This document shows, piece after piece, positions 1-62,839 of a stretch of 64,000 bases of DNA. The position numbers and the translations under genes were made by a program. The first letter of the stretch is position 1. The number at the start of each line of letters is the position of its first letter. The stretch comes from Burkholderiaceae bacterium (GTDB lineage: Bacteria; Pseudomonadota; Gammaproteobacteria; Burkholderiales; Burkholderiaceae_C), in assembly GCA_026125795.1 (NCBI GenBank), contig JAHCKM010000001.1:1984001-2048000 (forward strand). Direction: 5' to 3'. The notes below the pieces were generated by a model. It saw only the letters and a list, made by a program, of their open reading frames with translations, searched no databases and was not told the DNA's origin.

Positions 1-333
1 GCACCGATCTTCGAAACCGCTTTCACCGTGGTGTTCGTCGCATCGGCGCTGTTCCTGCTCGCCGGGGCCGCCGTTCTGAAGCGCGCATCGCCAGCTCTGC
101 TGCGTGCCGGTGCCTGGATGGCGCTGCTGCTGATGTTGATGTATGCGCGGCGCTGGAGCGGCCAGCTGGCGGCACCATGGGCCGAGTGGGCCGGCTACCT
201 GATCCTGGTGGTGCCCGTGGTGGCCGGCGTGCTGTTGCTCGCGCTGGCGGCCCAGGCCTGGCGCGAGTTGGCGGGGGCGGCAGCGCCGGCAGGTGTCGGT
301 GCCGTGCCTCAGACCAGCGCTTCGATCAGATAG
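1..333 (+). CDS. Membrane protein, 5' truncated by window edge
   Basis: The reading frame is open from base 1 and ends at TAG 331-333, so the true start lies upstream. The visible 110 residues contain three hydrophobic segments: one near the start, one rich in Leu/Met (about residues 36-52) and one ending in LLLALAAQAW. This is a small integral membrane protein, but I do not recognise the family. Its last 25 bases overlap the 3' end of the convergent thiamine-diphosphate enzyme gene. A GTG at 28 could act as a start, but the hydrophobic stretch begins upstream of it, which favours truncation. Confidence 0.55.
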   Translation, partial: APIFETAFTVVFVASALFLLAGAAVLKRASPALLRAGAWMALLLMLMYARRWSGQLAAPWAEWAGYLILVVPVVAGVLLLALAAQAWRELAGAAAPAGVGAVPQTSASIR

Positions 334-1940
334 GGACCCTGGCTGGCGAAACCGCGCTCGGTCTCGCGGATGAACGCCTCGGGCGTCTGCACGCTGGCGC
401 CTGGCATGCCGTGGCCTCTGGCGATGGCGACCCAGTCGAGCGCGGGCGCGTCGAGCGTCAGCATGCGCGTCGCCTTGGGGCCGCTAACGGCGTGAACCCC
501 CTGGCTCGCTGCTGCGTGCGCGTCCCCCCGAGGGGAATCGGCCGCTTCGGGCGGCCGGGCGCGGCCGGCGCCCACGCTCTTCAGCTCGCCTTGCAGGATG
601 CGGTAGGCACGGTTCGCGAACACAACCACCACCACCGGCAGCGACTCGCGCGCGATGCTCCACAGGGCTTGCAAGGTGTACATCGCGCTGCCGTCGCCTT
701 CCAGCGCCAGCACCGGCCGACCCGGCGCGCCAATGGCCGCACCGAGCGCGGCCGGCAATCCGAAGCCGATCGCGCCGCCCATCACCGTCAGCCAATCGTG
801 CGGCGCGGCAGCGGCGAAACGGTTGCCGAACGCGCGGCCCGATGTGACGGCCTCGTCGACCACGATCGTCTGCTCCGGCAGCAGTGCAACCAGCGCGTGG
901 CCGATCAGATCGGCATCGAGCGTAGAAGCGCGGCGCAACGCATCGAGGTCGACCGCTGTCGGCGTATCGGGCGGCACGGCGCGGGCACCGAGTTCGTCGC
1001 ACAGCGCCTGCAGCGCGGCGGGCACGTCGTCGCGTGCGTCGCACAAGGTCTGCAGCGCGCAGCCGGCCGCCTTGAGCTGGCTCGGTTTACCCGGATAGGC
1101 AAAGAAGCCGATAGGTTCGGTGGCGCCGGCCATCACGAGACAATCGGCACCCTTGAGCTTGTCGAGTGCGGCGTCGGTTGCATACGGGAGACGCTCCAGG
1201 CGCGTGCGACCGCGGCCGCCTGCCGTGCGCGGGCTGTAAAACTCCGCCATGACTCGACAGCCGGTCTTACGCGCGATCGCCGCGGCGAGCGGCGCGCCGC
1301 GTTCGCCGACGCCGGCGGCGCCCACCAGCAGCAGCGCACGTTCTCCGAGCCGGGCGAGGGTCCGCGCGCACGCGCGCACCGCCTCGTCATCAGCAGGCTT
1401 CAGCGGTACCCGATCGGGGACGCGCGCGATGGCACCGCCAGGACCCCATGCGGTGTCAGCCGGCAGCGCGAGCGTCGCGATGCGGCCGAGCGCGCCGTCG
1501 CGCGTGGCGGCGATGGCCTGTGCGCCGGCAGCCGCCACGTCGAGCGAACGTTTGCAGGTGTACACCCAATGCGATACCGGCCTGGCGATGCCTTCGAGGT
1601 CGCTCTTGAGCGGTGACTCGAAACGCACGTGGTCCGTGGCGTGATCGCCGACGATGTTGACGATGCCCGAGCAGGCCTTCTTTGCGTTGTGCAGGTTGGC
1701 CAGGCCGTTGCCCAGGCCGGGCCCCAGGTGCAGCAGCGTGGCCGCCGGCTGACCCGTCATGCGGTAGTAGCCGTCGGCGGCCCCGGTCACCACGCCTTCG
1801 AACAGGCCGAGCACGCAGCGCGGCCCGTCGATGCGGTCGAGCGCCGCCACGAAGTGCATTTCGGACGTGCCGGGGTTGGCGAAGCACACGTCGACGCCGT
1901 TGGCGGCCAGCGTGGCCACAAGGGATTCGGCACCGTTCAT
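309..1940 (-). CDS. Thiamine-diphosphate enzyme, acetolactate synthase large-subunit-like, with in-frame repeat insertion
   Basis: The 543-residue protein has the three-domain layout of the acetolactate synthase/benzoylformate decarboxylase superfamily. The catalytic Glu lies in GLFEGVVTGAADGYYR (E48). The C-terminal cofactor motif begins GDGSAMYTLQ near residue 415 and its Asn is in FANRAY near 441. The ATG at 1938-1940 follows AAGGAA at suitable spacing; the upstream extension of the frame is an acnB shadow. Substrate is uncertain: it could be an acetolactate synthase or a decarboxylase of a related 2-oxo acid. Residues about 456-481 (Arg/Ala/Pro-rich, including DSPRGDAHAAASQG) are encoded by a copy of the dispersed repeat described below. 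They interrupt the sequence between the usual GELKSVGA and GPKA segments. The frame is kept, so a full-length protein is possible, but activity is not assured. Confidence 0.85.
   Translation of the reverse strand: MNGAESLVATLAANGVDVCFANPGTSEMHFVAALDRIDGPRCVLGLFEGVVTGAADGYYRMTGQPAATLLHLGPGLGNGLANLHNAKKACSGIVNIVGDHATDHVRFESPLKSDLEGIARPVSHWVYTCKRSLDVAAAGAQAIAATRDGALGRIATLALPADTAWGPGGAIARVPDRVPLKPADDEAVRACARTLARLGERALLLVGAAGVGERGAPLAAAIARKTGCRVMAEFYSPRTAGGRGRTRLERLPYATDAALDKLKGADCLVMAGATEPIGFFAYPGKPSQLKAAGCALQTLCDARDDVPAALQALCDELGARAVPPDTPTAVDLDALRRASTLDADLIGHALVALLPEQTIVVDEAVTSGRAFGNRFAAAAPHDWLTVMGGAIGFGLPAALGAAIGAPGRPVLALEGDGSAMYTLQALWSIARESLPVVVVVFANRAYRILQGELKSVGAGRARPPEAADSPRGDAHAAASQGVHAVSGPKATRMLTLDAPALDWVAIARGHGMPGASVQTPEAFIRETERGFASQGPYLIEALV
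495..573. repeat. Dispersed GC-rich palindromic repeat, copy 1 (inside coding sequence)
   Basis: This stretch carries the family's CCCCCTGGCTCGCT start, the CCCCCCGAGGGG palindromic core and the CTTCGGGCGGCCGGGCGC tail. It matches intergenic copies at 9755, 20261 (reverse), 42446, 45483 and 62421 (reverse). Here it is embedded in frame in the thiamine-diphosphate enzyme gene and adds about 26 residues. Confidence 0.75.
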
Positions 1941-2047: not shown

Positions 2048-4651
2048 CTAGGCCAGTGCGGGGGTGGTCACATTCTTCGCCGTGTCGACGTATTCCTCGA
2101 TCTGGTCGAAGTTCATGTAGCGGTACACCGTCGTCGCGTCCTTGTTGATCACGCCCATGTCGGCGTGGTACTCGGCCACCGTCGGCAGGCGGCCGAGCTT
2201 CGATGCGATAGCGGCCAACTCGGCCGAGGCGAGGTACACGTTGGTGTTCTTGCCCAGGCGGTTGGGGAAATTGCGCGTGCTGGTGGAGACCACGGTCGCG
2301 CCTTCGCGCACCTGCGCCTGGTTGCCCATGCACAGGCTGCAGCCCGGCATCTCGGTGCGCGCGCCAGCGGCGCCGAACACGCCGTAGTGGCCTTCCTTGG
2401 TCAGCTCGGCCTGGTCCATCTTGGTGGGCGGCGCGACCCACAGCTTGACCGGGATGTCACGCCTGCCTTCGAGCAGCTTGCTGGCGGCGCGAAAGTGGCC
2501 AATGTTGGTCATGCACGAGCCGATGAATGCCTCGTCGATCTTGGCGCCCGCCACCTCGCTGAGCAGCTTGGCGTCGTCGGGATCGTTGGGGCAGCACAGC
2601 ACCGGCTCTTTCAGCTGATCGAGGTCGATCTCGATCACCGCGGCGTACTCGGCATCCCGGTCGGCCTCGAGGAGCTGCGGCTTGGCGAGCCACGCTTCCA
2701 CTGCCTGGATGCGCCGTTGCAGCGTGCGCGCGTCCTGGTAGCCCTGCGCGATCATGTTCTTCATCAGCACCACGTTGCTGGTGAGGTACTCGACGATCGG
2801 CGCCTGGTTGAGCTTGACGGTGCAGCCGGCGGCCGAGCGCTCGGCACTGGCGTCGCTCAACTCGAAGGCCTGCTCCACCTTGAGGTCGGGCAGCCCCTCG
2901 ATCTCCAGGATGCGACCGGAGAAGACGTTCTTCTTGCCTTGCTTGGCCACCGTGAGCAGGCCCTGCCGGATCGCAAAGTAGGGAATCGCGTGCACCAGGT
3001 CGCGCAGCGTGATGCCGGGTTGCATCCTGCCCTTGAAGCGCACCAGCACGCTCTCGGGCATGTCGAGCGGCATCACGCCGGTGGCGGCGGCGAACGCCAC
3101 CAGACCCGAGCCGGCCGGGAAACTGATACCGATCGGAAAGCGCGTGTGCGAGTCGCCGCCGGTGCCGCAGGTGTCGGGCAGCAGCAGGCGGTTGAGCCAG
3201 GAATGGATCACGCCGTCGCCCACGCGCAGCGACACGCCGCCGCGGTTGCTCATGAACGCCGGCAACTCGCGGTGCGTCTTGATGTCCACCGGCTTCGGGT
3301 ACGGCGCGGTATGGCAGAAGCTCTGCATCACCAGGTCGGCGCTGAAGCCCAGGCAGGCGAGGTCTTTCAGCTCGTCGCGTGTCATCGGGCCGGTGGTGTC
3401 CTGCGAACCGACGGTGGTCATCTTCGGTTCGCAGTAGGTGCCGGGTCGCACGCCCTGGCCTTCGGGGAGGCCGCAGGCGCGTCCCACCATCTTTTGAGCC
3501 AGCGTGAAGCCCTTGCCGCTGTCCTGGGGCACCTGCGGCAGGCGAAACACCGTGGACGCCTTCAGTCCCAGGTGTTCGCGCGCCTTGGCAGTGAGCGAAC
3601 GGCCGATGATCAGGTTGATGCGGCCGCCGGCGCGCACCTCGTCGAGCAGAACATCACTCTTGAGCTGGAAGGTGGCGACGGTGGCGCCGTTCTTGACGAT
3701 CTTGCCGTCATAGGGCAGCACGTCGGCCACGTCGCCCATCTCGAGCTGCGACACGTCCACCTCGATCGGCAGGGCGCCGGAGTCTTCCTGCGTGTTGAAG
3801 AAGATCGGCGCGATCTTGCCGCCGAGCGTGATGCCGCCGAAACGCTTGTTGGGCACGAACGGGATGTCTTGTCCGGTGGCCCAGATCACGCTGTTGGTCG
3901 CGCTTTTGCGCGATGAACCGGTGCCCACCACATCGCCGACATAGGCCACGGTGTGGCCTTTCTTCTTCAGGTCCTCGATGAACTGGATCGGACCGCGTTT
4001 GCCGTCCTCCTCGGGCCTGAACGCGGCGCCTGCGCGCGTGTTCTTCAGCATCGCGAGGTAGTGCATCGGGATGTCGGGCCGGCTCCACGCGTCGGGCGCG
4101 GGCGACAGGTCGTCGGTGTTGGTTTCGCCGGGCACCTTGAACACGGTGACGGTGATCTTCATCGGCACCTCCGGACGCGACGTGAACCACTCGGCATCGG
4201 CCCAGCTCTGGATCACCTGCTGCGCGAACCCGTTGCCGGCCTTGGCCTTGATCGCCACGTCGTGGAAATAGTCGAACATCAACAACGTTGCCTTCAGCGC
4301 CTGGGCGGCGGCAGGGGCGACGCTGGCATCGTCGAGCAGGTCGATCAGCGGCTTGACGTTGTAGCCCCCGACCATCGTGCCGAGCAACTCGGTGGCACGC
4401 GTCCGGGAGATCAGCGGCACCTGGATGTCGCCATGTGCCACGGCGGCCAGGAACGAGGCCTTTACCTTGGCCGCGTCGTCCACGCCGGGAGGCACGCGCT
4501 GCACCAGCAGATCCAGCAGATAAGCCTCTTCGCCGGGCGGCGGGCTCTTGATCAGCTCTATCAACTCGGCGGTCTGCCTGGCATCGAGCGGCAGCGGCGG
4601 AATGCCGAGCGCGGCGCGTTCGGCAGCGTGTTGGCGGTAGGCGGTGAGCAT
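2048..4651 (-). CDS. acnB: Bifunctional aconitate hydratase 2 / 2-methylisocitrate dehydratase
   Basis: This 867-residue protein is AcnB, which interconverts citrate and isocitrate and can hydrate 2-methylaconitate. Length matches the E. coli enzyme (about 865). The [4Fe-4S] ligands fall at the familiar positions: Cys in FIGSCMTN near residue 710 and two Cys in PGCSLCMGN near 769 and 772. The N-terminal HEAT-like domain (about residues 1-160) precedes the aconitase domains, the arrangement specific to AcnB. The start follows a GGAG about ten bases upstream. A perfect 18-bp palindrome lies about 50 bp upstream (4699-4716) and probably controls transcription. The gene is part of the TCA cluster with mdh, sdh and gltA. 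It is also the dehydratase for propionate via methylcitrate, although prp genes are not seen here. Confidence 0.97.
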
Positions 4652-9669: not shown

Positions 9670-9754
9670 GGCGGAACGTGCGCAGCTGTCACGATCGCAG
9701 ACGCCGGCGCGACGGGCAGGTGCCGCCGTTGAAATAAAATCGCCGCCTGACAGC

Positions 9755-9825
9755 AACCCCTTGCTCGCTGCGCTCGCGTCTCCCAGAGGGGAGCCAGTCG
9801 GCTTGGGGCGGCCCGGCGCCGACTC
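9755..9825. repeat. Dispersed GC-rich palindromic repeat, copy 2 (sdhC leader)
   Basis: The stretch reads AACCCCTTGCTCGCTGCGCT, then TCCCAGAGGGGAG, then GGCTTGGGGCGGCCCGGCGC, matching the other family members. It ends about 22 bp before the sdhC start, and no good Shine-Dalgarno sequence remains between them. Confidence 0.75.
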
Positions 9826-9847
9826 GAGCCGCAAGCACACACAAGCG

Positions 9848-20240: not shown

Positions 20241-20260
20241 GCTTCGTCCTTCAGCGGTTA

Positions 20261-20329
20261 GGCCTCGCCCGGCCGCCCGAAGAGGCCTGCTCCCCCTCGG
20301 GGGGACGCGAGCGGAGCGAGCAAGGGGTC
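20261..20329. repeat. Dispersed GC-rich palindromic repeat, copy 3 (reverse orientation)
   Basis: The stretch contains GCTCCCCCTCGGGGGGACGC and GAGCGGAGCGAGCAAGGGG, the reverse complement of the copy before sdhC. It fills the gap between egtB and the methyltransferase gene. Confidence 0.75.
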
Positions 20330-20332
20330 ATG

Positions 20333-20956
20333 TCAGTGGCTGCGCTTGACGCCACTGGCGATGTAGCCCATCCCGAACTGGGTCGTCCAGCGCTGGAACG
20401 AATCGCAATACGCTTCGATCCGGTCCCACGGATGCCACAGATCGCCGGGCTTGGCGTTGTAGGGTCGGTTCTTCAGCCAGGTGTAGATGTTCAGGGGCCC
20501 GGTCCACCAGGGAAAGTACTTGATGCCGGCTATGGCAATGCGCGCGCCCGGCTTCACCTGTCGCATCAGGTTGGACAACGCGGCTGGAGAACGCAGGATG
20601 TCGTGCGTGTAGTTGAAGAGCACCGCATCGGCGGCCTCCGGCAACTGCACGCCTTCGGCCGACGCGCACACATGCCACACGTTGCGCCACCCTTCGCGAT
20701 CGACGCGCGCCGCGGCCAGCGCGAACATTTCGGGGCTCTGCTCGAAGGCGAGCACGCGGCCCGTCTCGCCCACGCCTTCGCGCAGCAACGGGTAGCTCAG
20801 ACCGGTGCCGGCGCCCACATCGAGCACCACCTGGCCCGGCCGCAGTTGCAGCAGCGCGACGGTGCGCTGGCGCAGCGGCATCGTGTATTGGGCCGACTCA
20901 TCGTAGCCGGCCGCCTTGCGCTTGTAGCGCTGGATCGACAGCTCGTTGGGCGTCAC
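20333..20956 (-). CDS. Class I SAM-dependent methyltransferase
   Basis: The 207-residue enzyme has the SAM-binding motif VLDVGAGTGLSYPLL (near residues 44-58), an acidic residue after the second strand (VLAFEQSPEM), and a motif IV region VLFNYTHDIL. The C-terminal half includes KYFPWWTGPLNIYTWLKNRP. It lies between egtB and an SMR transporter gene and is cotranscribed in their direction. The substrate is unknown; its position suggests a link to ergothioneine or a lipid/quinone-like substrate, which is inference only. Confidence 0.82.
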   Translation of the reverse strand: MTPNELSIQRYKRKAAGYDESAQYTMPLRQRTVALLQLRPGQVVLDVGAGTGLSYPLLREGVGETGRVLAFEQSPEMFALAAARVDREGWRNVWHVCASAEGVQLPEAADAVLFNYTHDILRSPAALSNLMRQVKPGARIAIAGIKYFPWWTGPLNIYTWLKNRPYNAKPGDLWHPWDRIEAYCDSFQRWTTQFGMGYIASGVKRSH

Positions 20957-41786: not shown

Positions 41787-42434
41787 TTGCAGCAACGCAC
41801 CCGCATCAAGATTTGCGGCCTGTCGCAGGAGGCCGATGTGGCGGCCGCCGTCGAGGCCGGTGCCGATGCCGTGGGCTTCGTGATGTACGGCAAGAGCGCG
41901 CGCCACGTCAGCGCGGCGCGTGCCGGTGAGCTGGCGCGAGCGCTGCCTCCTTTCGTGACGCCGGTGTGCCTGTTCGTCAACGCCAGGCCCGACGACATCG
42001 GCCGCGCTCTCGACCATGTGCCGCGCGCCGTGCTGCAGTTCCATGGCGACGAGACGCCGGCGCAGTGCGAGGCGGCGCGGCGCACATACATCCGGGCGGC
42101 GCGCGTGGCCGAGGGCTTTGCGCTGTTAGACTTCGCGCACGCTTTCGCCAGTGCGTCGGCGCTGCTGCTGGACGCCGATGTCCAGGGTTATGGCGGCGGC
42201 GGAAAGGTCTTTGATTGGTCACTCATTCCACCAAACGTGCCCCTTCCGGTCGTTTTGTCTGGTGGGTTGAATCCTGCAAACGTGATCGATGGGGTGATGC
42301 GCGTCCGGCCCTGGGCCGTTGACGTGAGCTCCGGCGTGGAGGCAAGCAAGGGCGTCAAGGACGCTGCGCTGATCCGCCGGTTCTGCGAAGCGGTGCGCGA
42401 AGCCGATGCGCGCATCGACGACGCCATCCACTAG
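41787..42434 (+). CDS. trpF: Phosphoribosylanthranilate isomerase
   Basis: The 215-residue TIM barrel starts at TTG with RTRIKICGLSQEADV, where the Cys is the catalytic base. The general acid Asp lies in LLLDADVQGYGGGGKVFDW, and VLSGGLNPANV and VDVSSGVE form the phosphate site. It starts 11 bp after truA. Confidence 0.95.
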   Translation: MQQRTRIKICGLSQEADVAAAVEAGADAVGFVMYGKSARHVSAARAGELARALPPFVTPVCLFVNARPDDIGRALDHVPRAVLQFHGDETPAQCEAARRTYIRAARVAEGFALLDFAHAFASASALLLDADVQGYGGGGKVFDWSLIPPNVPLPVVLSGGLNPANVIDGVMRVRPWAVDVSSGVEASKGVKDAALIRRFCEAVREADARIDDAIH

Positions 42435-42445
42435 AAAGGAATGTC

Positions 42446-42522
42446 GGCCCCCACGCTTGGCGCCTCGCGCCGGCGCTGCCCCCGCGGGGGCACAGTCCGG
42501 CTTGGGGCGGCCCGGCGCCGGC
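42446..42522. repeat. Dispersed GC-rich palindromic repeat, copy 4 (trpF-trpB gap)
   Basis: The stretch contains CCCCCACGCTTGGCGC, GCTGCCCCCGCGGGGGCAC and GGCTTGGGGCGGCCCGGCGC. It fills the trpF-trpB gap and ends about 10 bp before the trpB start, leaving no visible Shine-Dalgarno sequence. Confidence 0.75.
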
Positions 42523-42532
42523 CTGATCCATC

Positions 42533-43780
42533 ATGAAGCACTACCAACAGCCCGACGCGAGCGGGCATTTCGGGCCTTACGGCGGCCGTTTCGTCGCCGA
42601 GACCCTGGTCCATGCGCTCGACGAACTGCGCGCCGCCTACGAGCACTATCGCAACGATGATGCGTTCATGGCCGAGTTCCGCAACGAGCTCGAGCACTTC
42701 GTCGGGCGTCCGAGCCCGATCTACCATGCGGCGCGCCTGAGCCGCGAGATCGGCGGCGCGCAGATCCACTTGAAGCGCGAGGACTTGAACCACACCGGCG
42801 CGCACAAGGTGAACAACACCGTCGGCCAGGCGCTGCTGGCCAAGCGCATGGGCAAGCCGCGCGTGATCGCCGAGACCGGCGCCGGCCAGCACGGCGTGGC
42901 CACTGCCACCGTGTGCGCACGCTACGGCATGGAATGCGTGGTCTACATGGGCAGCGAAGACGTCAAGCGCCAGTCGCCCAACGTCTACCGCATGCATCTG
43001 CTGGGGGCCAAGGTCGTGCCGGTGGACAGCGGCTCCAGGACGCTGAAGGATGCGCTCAACGAAGCGCTGCGCGACTGGGTCACGCACGTCGACAACACCT
43101 TCTACATCATCGGCACCGTCGCCGGGCCGCACCCATACCCGATGCTGGTGCGCGACTTTCAGCGTGTGATCGGCGATGAATGCGTCGTGCAGATGCAAAG
43201 ACAGATCGGCCGCCAGCCCGACGCGGCGATCGCCTGCGTCGGCGGCGGCAGCAACGCGATGGGCTTGTTCTATCCGTACATCGAGCACGAGCGCGTGCGC
43301 TTGATCGGGGTGGAGGCTGCGGGACAGGGTCTGGCCAGCGGCAAGCACGCCGCCAGCCTGTCGGCCGGCTCACCCGGCGTGCTGCACGGCAACCGCACCT
43401 ACCTGCTGCAGGATGACAACGGGCAGATCCTGGAAACCCACTCGATCTCCGCCGGGCTCGACTACCCGGGCGTTGGCCCCGAGCATGCCTACCTCAAGGA
43501 CATCGGTCGCGCCGAGTACGTCGGCATCACCGACGACGAGGCGCTGGCCGCGTTCCACAAGCTGTGCCGCACCGAAGGCATCATCCCCGCCCTTGAATCG
43601 AGCCATGCGGTGGCCTACGCGATGAAGCTCGCAGCCACCATGAAGCCCGATCAGCACCTGCTGGTCAACCTGTCGGGCCGAGGCGACAAGGACATCGGCA
43701 CGGTGGCCGACCTCTCGGGAGCCGACTTCTACTGCCGGCCGTCGTGCCGCGGACAGTCGGTGAAAGGAGGGGCGAGATGA
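42533..43780 (+). CDS. trpB: Tryptophan synthase beta chain
   Basis: The 415-residue PLP enzyme joins indole and serine. It has the PLP Lys in [30 protein letters not shown], the phosphate loop [10 protein letters not shown], and [12 protein letters not shown]. Its leader consists of the dispersed repeat, with no good ribosome site. It overlaps trpA by four bases. Confidence 0.97.
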
Positions 43781-45482: not shown

Positions 45483-45648
45483 TCGGCGCCTACGCTTGTC
45501 GCTTCGCGCCTTCGCTGCTCTTGCAGGGCGCGTTGGCCGCAAGCGGCCAACCCCTCGCCAGGCATGAACAGTCCACCGGACTGTTCATGTCCGGGCTCGG
45601 CCCCAAGGGGGCGCAGTCCAGCTTGGGGTGGCTCGGCGCTGGAGGGGT
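45483..45648. repeat. Dispersed palindromic repeat, copy 5, split by extra hairpins
   Basis: The accD-folC gap begins like copy 4 (CGCCTACGCTTGTCGCTTCG) and ends like it (CCCAAGGGGGCGCAGTCC, AGCTTGGGGTGGCTCGGCGC). Between the halves lie two extra hairpins: TTGGCCGC-AA-GCGGCCAA at 45533-45550, and CATGAACAGTCC-ACC-GGACTGTTCATG (12-bp perfect stem) at 45563-45589. It looks like one repeat expanded by a second palindromic unit. Confidence 0.7.
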
Positions 45649-45675
45649 CTAGCCAGGCGCCGGCGGGCTGCACGC

Positions 45676-49941: not shown

Positions 49942-51177
49942 TTGAGCGAGAACGACAAGAGGATTCCGCGCACGCAGCTGCCGGGCGATGCCCGGCTCGA
50001 CACGCTGGCCGTGCGCGAGGGTCTTCCGCCCAGCCAGTGGGGCGAGAACTCCGAGGCGTTGTTCGTCAGCAGCAGTTTCGTCCACCCCGATGCGGCCACC
50101 GCGGCGGCGCGTTTCGCCAACGAGGAAGAAGCCTTCGTCTACAGCCGCTTCAGCAACCCCACCGTCACGATGATGGAGCGCCGCCTGGCGGCGCTGGAAG
50201 GCAGCGAGGCCTGCATCGGCACCGCCAGCGGAATGGGTGCCATCACCCTGCTGGCGTTGAGCCTGCTGCAGGCCGGCGACCACGTGATCTGCTCGCAGAG
50301 CGTGTTCGGCTCGACGATCAAGCTGCTCGGCGGCGAGTTCAGCAAGTTCGGCGTCGAAACCAGCTTCGTGTCGCAGACCGACGTCGCGCAGTGGCGCGAG
50401 GCGGTGAGGCCCAACACCAAGCTGCTGTTCGCAGAGTCGCCGACCAATCCGTTGACCGAGGTGTGCGACATCGCCGCGCTGGCGAGGATCGCGCACAACG
50501 CCGGCGCGCTGCTGGTGGTGGACAACTGCTTCTGCTCGCCGGCGTTGCAGCGGCCGATCCATCTCGGCGCCGACATCGTGATGCACTCGGGCACCAAGTA
50601 CCTTGACGGCCAAGGCCGGGTGATCGCCGGCGCGCTGTGCTGCAGCCAGAAGCTGGTCGACGAGAAGTTCATGCCGATGATGCGCAGCGCCGGCATCACG
50701 CTGTCGCCCTTCAATGCGTGGGTCGTGCTCAAAGGCATGGAGACACTTTCGATCCGCATGCGCGAGCAGAGCGCGCGCGCTCTCGAGCTGGCGCGCTGGC
50801 TCGAGCAGCACCGCGCCGTCGAACGCGTGTACCACCCCGGCTTGCCGTCGCACCCTCAGCACGAGCTGGCGATGCGCCAGCAAGACGGTGTGGGTGGACC
50901 GGTGGCGTCGTTCATCGTCAAGGGAGCCGACGCCGACCGCGCACGCGCAAACGCGTTTGCGGTGATCGATGGGACGCGCATCTGCTCGATCACCGCCAAC
51001 CTCGGCGACACCAAGACCACCGTGACGCACCCGTCGAGCACCACGCACGGTCGGCTCACCGAGGCGCAGCGCCAGGCCGCCGGCATCACACAGGGCATGA
51101 TCCGCATCGCCGTAGGCCTGGAAGACCTCGAGGACCTGAAGGTCGACCTGGCGCGCGGGCTCGACGCGATCCGATGA
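49942..51177 (+). CDS. metZ: O-succinylhomoserine sulfhydrylase
   Basis: The 411-residue PLP enzyme of the Cys/Met-metabolism family makes homocysteine from O-succinylhomoserine and sulfide. The PLP Lys is in MHSGTKYLDGQGRVIAGAL. Also seen are FVYSRFSNPTVTMMERRLA and GTASGMGAI. It starts at TTG, 8 bp after purF, the normal purF-metZ arrangement. The stop codon overlaps the start of a 27-codon ORF. Confidence 0.94.
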   Translation: MSENDKRIPRTQLPGDARLDTLAVREGLPPSQWGENSEALFVSSSFVHPDAATAAARFANEEEAFVYSRFSNPTVTMMERRLAALEGSEACIGTASGMGAITLLALSLLQAGDHVICSQSVFGSTIKLLGGEFSKFGVETSFVSQTDVAQWREAVRPNTKLLFAESPTNPLTEVCDIAALARIAHNAGALLVVDNCFCSPALQRPIHLGADIVMHSGTKYLDGQGRVIAGALCCSQKLVDEKFMPMMRSAGITLSPFNAWVVLKGMETLSIRMREQSARALELARWLEQHRAVERVYHPGLPSHPQHELAMRQQDGVGGPVASFIVKGADADRARANAFAVIDGTRICSITANLGDTKTTVTHPSSTTHGRLTEAQRQAAGITQGMIRIAVGLEDLEDLKVDLARGLDAIR

Positions 51178-51257
51178 CGGCACGCGCGCGCAAGGCCGCC
51201 TCAAGCGCGCGGCGCTCCCTGGGGCGGACGGCGCGCAGCGCCAAGAGTGACACATGA
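51174..51257 (+). CDS. Possible 27-residue basic peptide linking metZ and gltX
   Basis: ATG at 51174 overlaps the metZ stop (ATGA), and the TGA at 51255-51257 overlaps the gltX ATG (again ATGA). The predicted peptide is rich in Arg, Lys, Ala and Ser (begins [14 protein letters not shown], ends SAKSDT). The double overlap would pass ribosomes from metZ to gltX. It could be a real coupling peptide, or a chance ORF in a 76-bp gap. Confidence 0.35.
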
Positions 51258-52654
51258 CTTTGGTACGCACGCGCATCGCGCCGTCGCCCACCGGCTTCCT
51301 GCATCTGGGCACCGCGCGCACCGCGCTGTACTCGTGGGCTTATGCGCGCCACCATGGCGGGCAGTTCGTGCTGCGCATCGAAGACACCGACGTGGCGCGC
51401 TCGACGCAGGAGTCGGTCGACCAGATCCTCGACGCCATGCACTGGCTGGGCCTGGACTACGACGAAGGCCCGGTGCACCAGATGCAGCGCCTGGCGCGCT
51501 ACCAGGAGGTGGCCGAGTCGATGATCGCCGCAGGCACGGCGTATCGCTGCTACTGCACGCCCGAGGAACTCGACGCGATGCGCGAGACGCAGCGTGCGCG
51601 CGGCGAGAAGACCCACTATGACCGCCGCTGGCGTCCGGAGCCGGGCAAGACGCTGCCGCCGGTGCCGGCCGGCGTGAAGCCCGTGGTGCGCTTCTGCAAC
51701 CCCAAGTCGGGCAGCGTGTCGTGGAACGACCTGGTCAAGGGCCCGATCCGCATCAGCAACGAAGAGATCGACGACCTGATCATCGTGCGCAACGATGGCG
51801 TGCCGACGTACAACTTTGCCGTCGTGGTCGACGACTGGGACATGCGCATCACGCACGTGTTTCGCGGCGACGAGCACATCAACAACACGCCCTGGCAGAT
51901 CAACATCTTCCACGCGCTGAATGCGCCGCTGCCGCTGTTCGGCCACTGTCCGATCATCCTCGGCGAAGACGGGCTCAAGCTGTCCAAGCGCCGCGGCGCG
52001 GTGAGCGTGATGGCCTACGAAGAGGCCGGCTATCTGCCCGAGGCGATGCTCAACTACCTCGCGCGCCTGGGCTGGAGCCACGGTGACCACGAGCTGTTCA
52101 CGCGCGAGCAGATGGTGCAGTGGTTCGACGGCAGCCACATGGCCAAGAGCCCTGCGCAGTGGGATCCGGCCAAGCTCGCGTGGGTCAACGCGCACCACAT
52201 CAAGCTGGCCGACGACGCGCGGCTGGCGCGCCTGGTGGCGCGTCACCTGGCCGCGCTCGGCATCGGAGCCGATGCCGCCGATGCGCGCCTCGCACAGCGT
52301 TGCGCGCTGTTCAAGGATCGGTGCGCCACGCTGGTTGAACTGGCGCGCTGGCTGGCGATGTTCGACGCGCCGGCGCCGCCGAGCCCGCAAGACCGCGCGG
52401 CCCACCTCACCGACGCCGCGCGGCCCGGCCTGCGGTCGCTGTGCGAGCGATTGCGCGTGGCGCCGTGGGAGCCAGCCGGGATCACGCAGGCGCTCAAGGA
52501 CACGCTGGCCGAGCACAAGCTCAAGATGCCCCAACTCGCCATCCCTGTGCGGGTGGCGGTGTGCGGCCGGGTGCAGACGCCGGCCATCGATGCGGTTCTG
52601 GCGCTGTTCGATCGGGAGACCGTGCTCCACCGCCTCGCCGAAGCGGTGAATTGA
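51254..52654 (+). CDS. gltX: Glutamyl-tRNA synthetase
   Basis: The 466-residue class I synthetase has the HIGH-type motif [11 protein letters not shown] at residues 9-19, [11 protein letters not shown], and the KMSKS-type motif [12 protein letters not shown] near 240. The C-terminal anticodon-binding helical domain is complete. It is followed directly by tRNA-Ala and tRNA-Glu, its own substrate. Confidence 0.97.
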
Positions 52655-57742: not shown

Positions 57743-58546
57743 TCAGTCCTCGAAGATCGCCACCGCGCGCGTCCAGCCGGCGGAGGCGCCGCGGATCTTG
57801 TGCGGGAAGCAGCTGATCGTGAAACCGTGCGGCGGCAGCGCCTCGAGGTTGTGCAGCTTCTCGAGGTGGCAGTAGCCGATGTCGCGTCCGGCCTTGTGGC
57901 CCTCCCAGATCAGCGACTTGTTGCCCGTCTCGGCCACCTTCTTCGCGGTGTAGGAAAACGGCGCGTCCCAGCTCCAGGCGTCGGTGCCGGTCAGGCGCAC
58001 GCCACGCTCGAGCAGGTGCATCGTGGCCTCGTAGCCCATGCCGCAACCGGCGCTCACGTAGTCGTTGTGTCCGTATCGCGAGCCGGCGCGCGTGTTGACG
58101 ACCACGATGTCCAGCGGCTCGAGCACATGGCCGATGCGCTTCAGCTCCGCCTCGACATCCGCCGCCGTGGCCACGTAGCCGTCGGGGAAGTGCCGAAAGT
58201 CCAGCTTCACGCCGGGCTGGAAGCACCATTCGAGCGGCACCTCGTCGATCGTGATCGATCGGCGCGCGCCGCCGATCGCGGCGTCCTGCGTCGAATGGAA
58301 GTGCCACGGCGCATCGAGGTGCGTGCCGTTGTGCGTGGTCAGCGTCACCCACTCGGCGGCCGCGGCCTCGCCGTCGGGATAGTCCTCCGGCTTCGTGCCG
58401 GGCAGCATGGCCATGAACTCCGGCAGCGTGTCGGCGTGCTTCTGGTAGGTGATCCTCGGCGCCAGCGGCGGCGGGTCTGACAGCACGTCGTTCTCGAGGT
58501 AGATCGAGAGGTCGACGAAGCGGCGGCGCGGTCTCGTGGGTTTCAC
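57743..58546 (-). CDS. Cyclase family / kynurenine formamidase-like metal hydrolase
   Basis: The 267-residue enzyme has the family motif THNGTHLDAPWHFH (HxGTHxDxPxH metal site), RSITIDEVPLEWCF and GYEATMHLLERGVRLTGTDA. The members hydrolyse cyclic or formyl amides (isatin hydrolase, kynurenine formamidase). The GTG at 58546 with GGAGG eight bases upstream is the likely start. The IS110 element lies immediately upstream and separates it from the rest of the cluster. Confidence 0.85.
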   Translation of the reverse strand: MKPTRPRRRFVDLSIYLENDVLSDPPPLAPRITYQKHADTLPEFMAMLPGTKPEDYPDGEAAAAEWVTLTTHNGTHLDAPWHFHSTQDAAIGGARRSITIDEVPLEWCFQPGVKLDFRHFPDGYVATAADVEAELKRIGHVLEPLDIVVVNTRAGSRYGHNDYVSAGCGMGYEATMHLLERGVRLTGTDAWSWDAPFSYTAKKVAETGNKSLIWEGHKAGRDIGYCHLEKLHNLEALPPHGFTISCFPHKIRGASAGWTRAVAIFED

Positions 58547-58634
58547 TGGACTACCCTCCGCGCTACGCGCTTCGGGGCTATGAGCCCTGGGAGCGGCCCG
58601 GCGGCTCATTGGGCATCCTCCCCGGTATTGACAC

Positions 58635-61275: not shown

Positions 61276-62403
61276 TCAGATCGGCTGCGCCAGCGCCATC
61301 AACGAGTCGCGCATGATCTGCGCGTGCTCGTCCTTGCTTCCGCCTTCCATCTCGATCTCACCGAGGCGGAACGAGTTCTCGACCACCATGCGACAGCGTT
61401 CCCAACGCCGATCCTGAAACGCCTGCAGCGCGGCAGGCACCGCCGCGGCGCGCGACAGCTCCTCGGCCAGCACGATTGCGTCCTCGATGCCGATGCACGC
61501 GCCGCTGGCCAGGTGCGGCGTCGTTGCATGCACCGTGTCGCCGATCAGCACCACGCGACCCTTGAACCAGGGCCGCGGCATCAGCAGGCCCTCGAGTGGC
61601 CGGAACACGATCTGCGCCTGGTCGTCGATCTGATCGCGGATGCGCTGCAGCAGCGGTGCCGGAAACTCGGCCAGCAGCGCGCGCAGCAGCCGCGCGAAGT
61701 CGCTCGGGTCGACGCGCTCGTTGGCGGGGCGGTGTTCGGTGAGGAACAGGTACATGTGCTCCTTGGACACCGGGTTGACGCCGGGCTTCACGCGGCCCAT
61801 CCACATCGTTGCCGTCGTCACCTCGGGCGGCCGCGGCAGCACCGCGCGCCACACCGCCTGGCCGCTGTAGCGCGGCTTGGGCGCGCCCGGGAACAGCGCC
61901 TCGCGCGTCTTCGAGTGCAGGCCGTCGGCGCCGACCACGAGGTCGTAGCGCTGTCGCCGGCCGTCGGTGAACGTGACGTCCACGCCGTCGGCGTTCTGCT
62001 CCAGCGACGTGAACGTGCAGCCGAGCATCACGTTCGTGCCGCTGGCGCGCGTGGCGTCGGCCAGGATGCGCGCCAGCACCGGCCGCATGATGCCGCCGCT
62101 GCCCGGCACGTCGGGCCCGGCGATGCGCGGGGTCGGCACCTCGCCCAACGGCGCGCCGTGCGGCGCGCAGATCTTCACCCCATCCGATGCGGCGCCCTCG
62201 CGCAGGAAGGCTTCCAGGATGCCGAGCTGGCGGAACGCGCGCAGCGTGGCGCCGCCCAGGCTGATGCCGGCGCCGTAGTTGCGCCAGCCGGCATCGATCT
62301 CGGCCAGGTCGACATCGGCACCGAGCTTGCGCAGCTCGATCGCGGCCGACATGCCGGAAAAGCCGCCGCCGATGATCAGGATGCGTCGGGCTGCGAGTGT
62401 CAT
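61276..62403 (-). CDS. FAD-dependent aromatic monooxygenase (group A)
   Basis: The 375-residue flavoprotein hydroxylase has the FAD motif RILIIGGGFSGMSAAIELRK, the NAD(P)H/FAD motif DLVVGADGLHSKTREA and the ribityl motif GRVVLIGDTVHATTPHLASG. It resembles salicylate/3-hydroxybenzoate hydroxylases. It probably adds a hydroxyl group before ring cleavage. GGAGG precedes the ATG. The gap to the Rieske gene holds a copy of the dispersed repeat. Confidence 0.88.
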   Translation of the reverse strand: MTLAARRILIIGGGFSGMSAAIELRKLGADVDLAEIDAGWRNYGAGISLGGATLRAFRQLGILEAFLREGAASDGVKICAPHGAPLGEVPTPRIAGPDVPGSGGIMRPVLARILADATRASGTNVMLGCTFTSLEQNADGVDVTFTDGRRQRYDLVVGADGLHSKTREALFPGAPKPRYSGQAVWRAVLPRPPEVTTATMWMGRVKPGVNPVSKEHMYLFLTEHRPANERVDPSDFARLLRALLAEFPAPLLQRIRDQIDDQAQIVFRPLEGLLMPRPWFKGRVVLIGDTVHATTPHLASGACIGIEDAIVLAEELSRAAAVPAALQAFQDRRWERCRMVVENSFRLGEIEMEGGSKDEHAQIMRDSLMALAQPI

Positions 62404-62420
62404 GGCAGCCTCCGACGAGC

Positions 62421-62476
62421 CGCCTCTAGGAGGCTGGGCCCCCTCGGGGGGCAGCGAACGCAGTGAGCGTGGGGGT
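62421..62476. repeat. Dispersed GC-rich palindromic repeat, copy 6 (reverse orientation)
   Basis: The stretch contains GGGCCCCCTCGGGGGGCAGC and GAACGCAGTGAGCGTGGGGG, the reverse orientation of copy 4. It lies between the Rieske and monooxygenase genes, upstream of the latter's ribosome binding site on the minus strand. Confidence 0.7.
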
Positions 62477-62839
62477 TCATGGTGTCTCCTCTAATATCGT
62501 GTTAGTGACGTGCACCGTGCCGTCGTCGTGCACGGTCAGCGGCACCGACGTCAGCGCCTGGCCCAGGCACGGCCCCAGGGTGCAGCGGCCGGTCTGGATC
62601 TCGAACTGCGCGCCGTGCGCGGCGCAGACGATGCGGTCGCGCGCGGCATTGAGGTAGGCGTGCTTGCGCCAGGCCATCGGGGCGCCGTGGTGCGGGCAGA
62701 CGTTGAGCCAGCCGTGCAGCGCTTGCCCCTGCCGCACGACGAAGAACGCGTCGCGGCCGCTACCGCGCGGGTCGAAGCCGCGCGAGTCGCCGTCGGGCAG
62801 GTCGTCGAGGTGGCACAGGTGCATGGTGGGCTCGGGCAT
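62477..62839 (-). CDS. Rieske [2Fe-2S] ferredoxin
   Basis: The 120-residue protein has the Rieske motif: CPHHGAPMAW (Cys-x-His) and CAAHGAQFE (Cys-x2-His). It is of the small ferredoxin type that feeds electrons to aromatic dioxygenases. The start overlaps the stop of the extradiol dioxygenase gene (TGATG at 62837-62841). No large dioxygenase subunit is in the window; it may lie beyond the right edge. Confidence 0.9.
   Translation of the reverse strand: MPEPTMHLCHLDDLPDGDSRGFDPRGSGRDAFFVVRQGQALHGWLNVCPHHGAPMAWRKHAYLNAARDRIVCAAHGAQFEIQTGRCTLGPCLGQALTSVPLTVHDDGTVHVTNTILEETP

Follow-up and report, generated by a model that had tools for sequence, protein, structure and literature searches.

A copy of a GC-rich palindromic repeat was found inserted in frame in the gene of a thiamine-diphosphate (ThDP)-dependent enzyme, and it is very probably a non-autonomous, hairpin-forming mobile element that is translated as a tolerated, disordered loop. 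The presence of such a repeat within this gene had been proposed in a preliminary description of the DNA and was confirmed by alignment with homologues and by the match to other copies in the window, i.e., the whole stretch of 64,000 nt that was analysed (positions 1984001–2048000 of contig C1, in a genome of 6.57 Mb and six contigs). Both the insertion and its membership of the repeat family are demonstrated, whereas the mobility of the repeat, its translation and the retained activity of the proteins that bear it are what we infer.

The host gene (309..1940, minus strand) is an open reading frame of 543 amino acids, of the acetolactate synthase/benzoylformate decarboxylase-like type. Its product matched both Pfam TPP_enzyme_N and TPP_enzyme_C, and the best NCBIfam match was NF005760, "acetolactate synthase large subunit", with 669 bits (cut-off 363); with both TPP domains and a family profile above its cut-off, the protein classes as a PRK07586-type ThDP enzyme. 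The most similar solved structures were those of benzoylformate decarboxylases. The next open reading frame upstream (2048–4651) presumably encodes an aconitase. All positions that do not vary among 42 sequences, D416, G417 and N443 of the cofactor motif among them, are preserved, and the codon usage of both flanks of the insert resembles that of coding sequence. The closest orthologues (L144–L147 and L159) belong to two other genera, exhibit 65–68% identity in the alignment and carry no insert, the net gain of the window enzyme over them being 25 residues. No close orthologue was found in five genomes of the same genus, three of them less than 90% complete, which held one homologue of 52% identity (G002).

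The alignment of homologues comprised 112 rows, of which L137, L141 and L142 are fragments and 109 reach the site (108 distinct ones, as L136 and L143 are one place). The insertion of 75 nt (489..563, minus strand; residues 460–484, RARPPEAADSPRGDAHAAASQGVHA) was absent from all 109 rows. The anchor columns on either side of the site enclose 26 residues in the window protein, compared with one residue in 107 rows and three in the other two (L072 and L077). In a second alignment, with 41 homologues, the same interval held 1–4 residues in 40 rows and 8 in one. A paralogue in the same genome (L140) was also found without the 25-residue stretch. The two flanks, described earlier as normally adjacent in the family, are indeed adjacent in every row that reaches the site and align normally, and the clean insertion of 24–28 residues between unaltered flanks that was anticipated amounts to 25; homologues with the same residues, which would have spoken against an insertion, did not occur among the 109 rows. 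The repeat had been located at 495..573, which is the right site with boundaries shifted by a few bases, the insertion spanning 489–563 and the full model match 483–579. No clean target-site duplication was observed at the two intragenic sites inspected, in the window gene and in the gene of a serine dehydratase, where 5-nt junction matches seen by eye (CGCCG and ACCCG, respectively) imply 78 and 72 nt instead of 75.

Fold prediction, suggested previously as a way to recognise an exposed loop, gave a low-confidence coil on an intact fold. The AlphaFold2 model of the window protein, calculated with the 41 homologues, presented a mean pLDDT of 90.7 and a pTM of 0.91, and the insert, situated after the cofactor-binding segment and between helices 447–455 and 488–494, showed mean pLDDT values of 56 (residues 461–470) and 48 (residues 471–480), with values below 50 at 475–483. 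By sequence alignment, the insertion site maps between chain residues 462 and 475 of a benzoylformate decarboxylase, and the placement in a loop is based on this alignment together with the secondary structure of the model. The model is compatible with an exposed loop and an undisturbed fold, a low pLDDT in itself not proving disorder. The window enzyme probably stays functional; that the insert may change its activity was suggested in the preliminary description.

The relation of the insert to copies outside genes was supported by two observations that are independent of any covariance model. The core CCCCCCGAGGGG occurs exactly three times in the window, with 0.41 occurrences expected when one mismatch is allowed and three reached in none of 100 shuffles, and one of the occurrences, an exact match at 524..535 (CCCCTCGGGGGG on the minus strand), lies within the ThDP gene, so that the core reported as intact proved to be so. 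Additionally, the insert and the copy at 20261–20303 show 81% complementarity along 43 nt. A covariance model detected eight copies in the window at E < 0.01, those starting at 483, 20248 and 62395 being part of its training set. The full repeat, with hairpin, C4TCG6 core and G-rich tail, was matched at 483..579 (minus strand, 59.5 bits), followed by a copy with a degenerate core at 9742..9836 (minus, 62.0 bits), copies with an intact core at 20248..20342 (plus, 82.7 bits) and 62395..62489 (plus, 84.3 bits) and a copy at 42434..42535 (minus, 46.3 bits). Decayed copies are probable at 51171..51264 (plus, 32.1 bits) and possible at 58537..58621 (minus, 24.5 bits) and 45559..45656 (minus, 21.9 bits). 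According to codon usage, the two flanks share an open frame only in the copy at 483–579; in the other seven, including those at 9742, 20248, 42434 and 62395, they do not. A search of the window with Rfam at gathering thresholds yielded two tRNAs only.

The repeat consists of a covarying hairpin, the CCCCTCGGGGGG core and a G-rich tail. In typical copies, the arms of the hairpin vary yet remain able to pair, with a conserved loop between them (GCCGGGCCGCCCCAA and variants), and the tail ends in GGGGG; deviant copies exist as well, such as L104, L176 and L204. The 11-mer CCCCTCGGGGG was found 112 times in the genome and its reversed string not once, and 100 of these 112 exact places were examined with their flanks, a sample that is biased towards well-kept copies since it was obtained through the intact core. 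The covariance model matched at least 150 places in the genome, with its 51 training copies lying within the searched sequence. Among the 51 chosen copies, 94.9% of the stem cells are paired (73.7% after shuffling), 193 stem cells are changed on both sides (65.5 ± 7.4 after shuffling) and the stem covariation score is 0.509, against 0.133 ± 0.012 in shuffled sets (reached in 0 of 500) and at most 0.095 with the partners slid. Helix 1 has 92.6% of its cells paired and 7 of its 8 pairs changed on both sides. A short stem-loop with compensating changes, as looked for in REP elements, is therefore present; as the 51 copies are paralogues, the covariation indicates that the hairpin was kept or co-copied and is not a phylogenetic test. 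In the family of this bacterium, CCCCTCGGGGGG was found in 81 of 90 genomes with 1082 copies, the own genome having the most (100), whereas in other families of the order it was found in 13 of 59 genomes with 18 copies, at most 5 per genome; the reversed control string gave 0–3 per genome over the 149 genomes. Within this sample of 149 genomes, the repeat is common in no family other than that of this bacterium. In a literature search, the repeat was not described in the matches listed, which is weak evidence of novelty as few subscription papers were covered, and for four core strings the sole match listed was a Toxoplasma paper.

The position of the 100 copies from the own genome relative to genes was evaluated from the codon usage to the left and right of each copy. 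A total of 84 gene ends run into these copies, and for 69 of them the stop lies ahead of the element or less than 20 nt into it, 53 of these 69 being at −12 to +8 nt from the element edge. Reading through in frame was found for 12 of the 84, with a stop at least 260 nt from the edge or a run to the end of the stretch, and all 12 had the same frame on both sides. The remaining three (L090, L217 and L226) stop at 74–90 nt, near or just beyond the far end of the element, which may there supply the C-terminal tail of the incoming gene. None of the 84 gene ends stops at 20–73 nt inside the element, although each of the six element frames is open in only 46–84% of the copies. Genes cut off inside an element are nearly absent, with the provision that a truncation inside the initial 20 nt would pass for a natural gene end in this census. 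The internal copies were selected by the same-open-frame test, so that their being in frame is partly built in, and the count of gene ends serves as the independent check. This test was passed by 15 copies, of which L173, L212 and L231 were dropped since a start codon just after the element places them probably outside genes. In comparison, 640 of 1000 random window positions passed the same test, with a codon table trained on the same window, which indicates that the copies are depleted inside genes.

In total, 12 of the 100 copies lie in frame inside genes, and alignment of residues confirmed five. Apart from the ThDP enzyme, the net gains were 25 residues in the replicative DNA polymerase DnaE (L180), 26 in NtrB (L192) and 25 in L-serine dehydratase (L210), and NudC (L170) was found to be 25 residues longer than the E. 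coli-type NudC. The last was rejected as a clean example and is kept with a warning, given that the length of this loop varies in the genus (long and unlike in G001, shorter in G002). In a Rieske oxygenase (L094), the STAS domain of a SulP transporter (L176) and a glycoside phosphorylase (L187), the insert is enclosed by a single family match or separates two parts of it, and in L175 (complex-I/hydrogenase-like) and L220 (TauD-like) it is found beside the domains; L174 had no Pfam match and L227, scanned in NCBIfam alone, no NCBIfam match. The direction of reading follows the element in eight of the 12 internal copies and opposes it in four, and this use of both directions argues against a designed coding function.

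Similar insertions were found in other genomes, from which 22 copies were taken (13 of the 14 listed for G019, 8 of 8 for G081 and 1 of 6 for G022). Reading through in frame was observed for 10 of the 22 (7, 2 and 1, respectively), which corresponds to 9 of 21 in the two other genera represented by G019 and G081. All ten hosts had Pfam matches, namely an M16 peptidase, UvrA, a RibF-type FAD synthetase, MoeA, an AidB-like acyl-CoA dehydrogenase, GlnD, an ABC transporter, a fructose-bisphosphatase, a biotin carboxylase and an FAD-dependent oxidoreductase (glycerol-3-phosphate dehydrogenase in NCBIfam). For the three of these ten that were compared with solved structures, the net insertion was about 28 residues in the fructose-bisphosphatase, 27 in the carboxylase and 33 in MoeA, where natural length differences may add.

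The fate of the inserts was followed in DnaE, located in 29 of 30 genomes including the own one, and in NtrB. In three of five congeners, DnaE carries an insert at the same place, diverged and 1–3 residues shorter (22 residues in G004, 24 in G005 and 22 in G001), and in the DNA of G001 and G004 the right-hand portion of the element can be made out by eye; the insert is absent from 26 of the 29 aligned other rows, comprising congeners G002 and G003 and 24 further rows. The excess of NtrB over its short form was +26 in the own genome, +21 in G004, +11 in G005 and +4 in G001, the last being no larger than the values of +4 (L275) and +3 (L279) in two NtrB rows that come from other genera and lack the repeat, and saying nothing, therefore, on erosion. 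A full erosion series for NtrB was accordingly rejected, G001 being within natural variation, and only G004 and perhaps G005 count. On the evidence of these alignments, a shared, diverged insert is demonstrated in DnaE and also in the NtrB of one or two congeners. Seven other genomes, including four of the same genus, gave a match to the serine dehydratase, and its insert was absent from all of these. The core is intact in the own DnaE and NtrB inserts (L180 and L192) and missing at the same site in the congeners (L233–L235 and L263–L264), which may reflect the bias of a search by intact core or copies homogenised in this genome.

Several alternatives to a translated mobile element were considered. 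The least probable, to a degree that makes it almost negligible, is that the stretch is a natural lineage-specific loop, or GC-rich by chance, and not the repeat: loop length may vary among ThDP enzymes, as the 8 residues in one of 41 homologues indicate, and the GC content is high, but the exact 12-mer core common to two other window copies, the 43-nt inverted match, a hairpin and loop motif like those of 50 other copies and the lack of any such stretch in 109 homologue rows speak against it. Removal or skipping of the insert after transcription, by RNA excision or translational bypassing, would give a protein without the insert, and it would be favoured by the hairpin that would form in the mRNA and by the conserved genes that hold copies. 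Inserts would then not need to be open and in frame, yet no gene end was found at 20–73 nt inside the element, and in sister species the DnaE inserts are still in frame after the palindrome has changed, which makes this explanation highly improbable. A pseudogene in the making, i.e., an insertion that inactivated the enzyme with decay yet to come, is improbable as well, albeit less so. It would agree with the lack of a close orthologue in the five same-genus genomes and with an insert that comes after the cofactor-binding segment in a protein whose enzyme activity is inferred; the reading frame is, however, intact, the insert in frame and open, the invariant columns preserved and the codon usage coding-like on both flanks, and the same repeat is found in DnaE, which has a single match in the genome.

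The most serious alternative concerns the mobilising enzyme, namely that a RAYT (Y1 transposase) moves the repeat as a REP element, in the manner of Pseudomonas or E. coli, and it is considered unlikely. The hairpin, the position at gene ends, the copy number and the intragenic copies are all REP-like, and a Y1 domain in 101 of 149 relatives suggests that a past helper may have acted and since been lost. Nevertheless, no match to PF01797 (Y1) was found in the own genome or in five congeners (68–99% complete), copy number was unrelated to the presence of Y1 in 90 family genomes (medians of 6 and 5.5, p = 0.56), and no copy was detected within about 3 kb of 18 Y1 genes in 17 genomes, chosen from the listed ones and searched with a model trained on own-genome copies. 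The tags of such elements were not enriched either, with GTAG present in 5 copies out of 100, where shuffled sequences gave 24, and CGTC in 28 (45 expected), and on the reverse strand CTAC in 5 (18 after shuffling) and GACG in 46 (54). A non-autonomous hairpin element that prefers gene ends is the most likely mechanism. Such an element would be a small mobile repeat of roughly 75–90 nt, found mostly at gene ends; in the ThDP gene, a stop-free frame and a net length of 75 nt would allow translation as a 25-residue disordered loop between two helices. Intragenic insertions would survive only if in frame, open and in a tolerant loop, and the surviving inserts may later drift and shrink in frame like ordinary linkers.

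The resemblance to Rickettsia palindromic elements (RPEs), pointed out previously as an analogy, holds for in-frame insertion in numerous protein genes that are unrelated to one another (in the own genome 12 of 100 copies, and 10 of 22 in three others) but not for membership, as the CGTC/GTAG tags are not enriched. RPEs are given as 105–146 bp long and an RPE-bearing guanylate kinase is translated and active (PMC2229807), while the RPEs of R. conorii end in CGTC and one R. conorii repeat lies in DnaE (PMC3733652). As far as these descriptions go, the present repeat is similarly palindromic and is found both in intergenic positions and, in frame, within numerous unrelated conserved genes, DnaE included, but is set apart by being shorter and GC-rich, with a covarying hairpin, a C4TCG6 core and no tag. 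The GTAG/CGTC REPs are hairpins near the 3′ ends of genes, some giving the stop codon, and their intragenic units encode 20–30 residues in hosts that include replication and repair genes (PMC3733652). The present repeat shares with them, as there described, the location near gene 3′ ends, the in-frame intragenic units and the replication and repair hosts, and differs in being an untagged, longer composite unit in a genome where no RAYT was found. The main text of that paper contains no occurrence of Burkholderia, Comamonad-, Leptothrix, Rubrivivax, Delftia, Variovorax, Acidovorax, Polaromonas or Ralstonia. Bacterial MITEs with open reading frames (ERIC and the 107-bp Correia element) are, according to PMC2229807, non-autonomous, below 200 bp and fused in frame to genes, as is the present repeat. 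When its 51 copies were aligned, no inverted ends could be seen, and a clear target duplication was not observed either, which would set the repeat apart from these elements. Working like RPEs and intragenic REPs and failing the tag and RAYT tests, the repeat appears to be a variant of an already known kind of element.

In Rickettsia, the tolerance of in-frame inserts could be due to weak selection on small genomes. In-frame palindromic inserts are best known from that genus (PMC2229807). In the present case, a genome of 6.6 Mb bears the inserts in DnaE, NtrB and further conserved genes, and an altered form of the DnaE insert is found in congeners, so that the question of whether mobile repeats turn into permanent parts of proteins is open to testing. 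A broader proposal, advanced tentatively and with somewhat more doubt than confidence, is that untagged hairpin repeats moved by non-RAYT machinery settle at stop/start junctions and time and again seed linkers of about 25–28 residues in conserved and essential proteins within this family of bacteria. Under this proposal, the DnaE and NtrB series in sister species would mean that inserts become permanent, diverging segments and that the repeat family provides new protein sequence.

The edges of the copies are in agreement with insertion at overlapping stop and start codons, since ATGA was found on both edges in 10 of 100 copies (permuted mean 2.2; 0 of 500), most of the ten being alike and so not independent, and TCAT in 14 (permuted mean 6.5; 0 of 500). 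Copies of the own genome with ATGA at both ends include L084, L087, L093, L096, L102, L103, L188 and L224, and in copies such as L084 and L096 a translation by eye from the first ATG gave what resembles an open reading frame of about 25 codons with a TGA stop that overlaps the next ATG. Tandem copies were observed in L183, L200, L224 and L225, with spacings of 74, 82, 74 and 78 nt, respectively; the tandem period of 74–82 nt in the own genome, and of 83–89 nt in examples from other genomes, is not always a multiple of three.

A second repeat at the contig breaks of draft orthologues, near residues 137–187, was considered and rejected, as no repeat core was seen in the contig ends displayed. 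The end of L143 (contig C7 of G016) looks like a sequencing adapter followed by a run of A, that is, a contaminant of the draft. In L009 (2501–4926), the tblastn match extends over about 2.4 kb rather than about 1.5 kb, which points to inserted sequence or to a second match within the contig.
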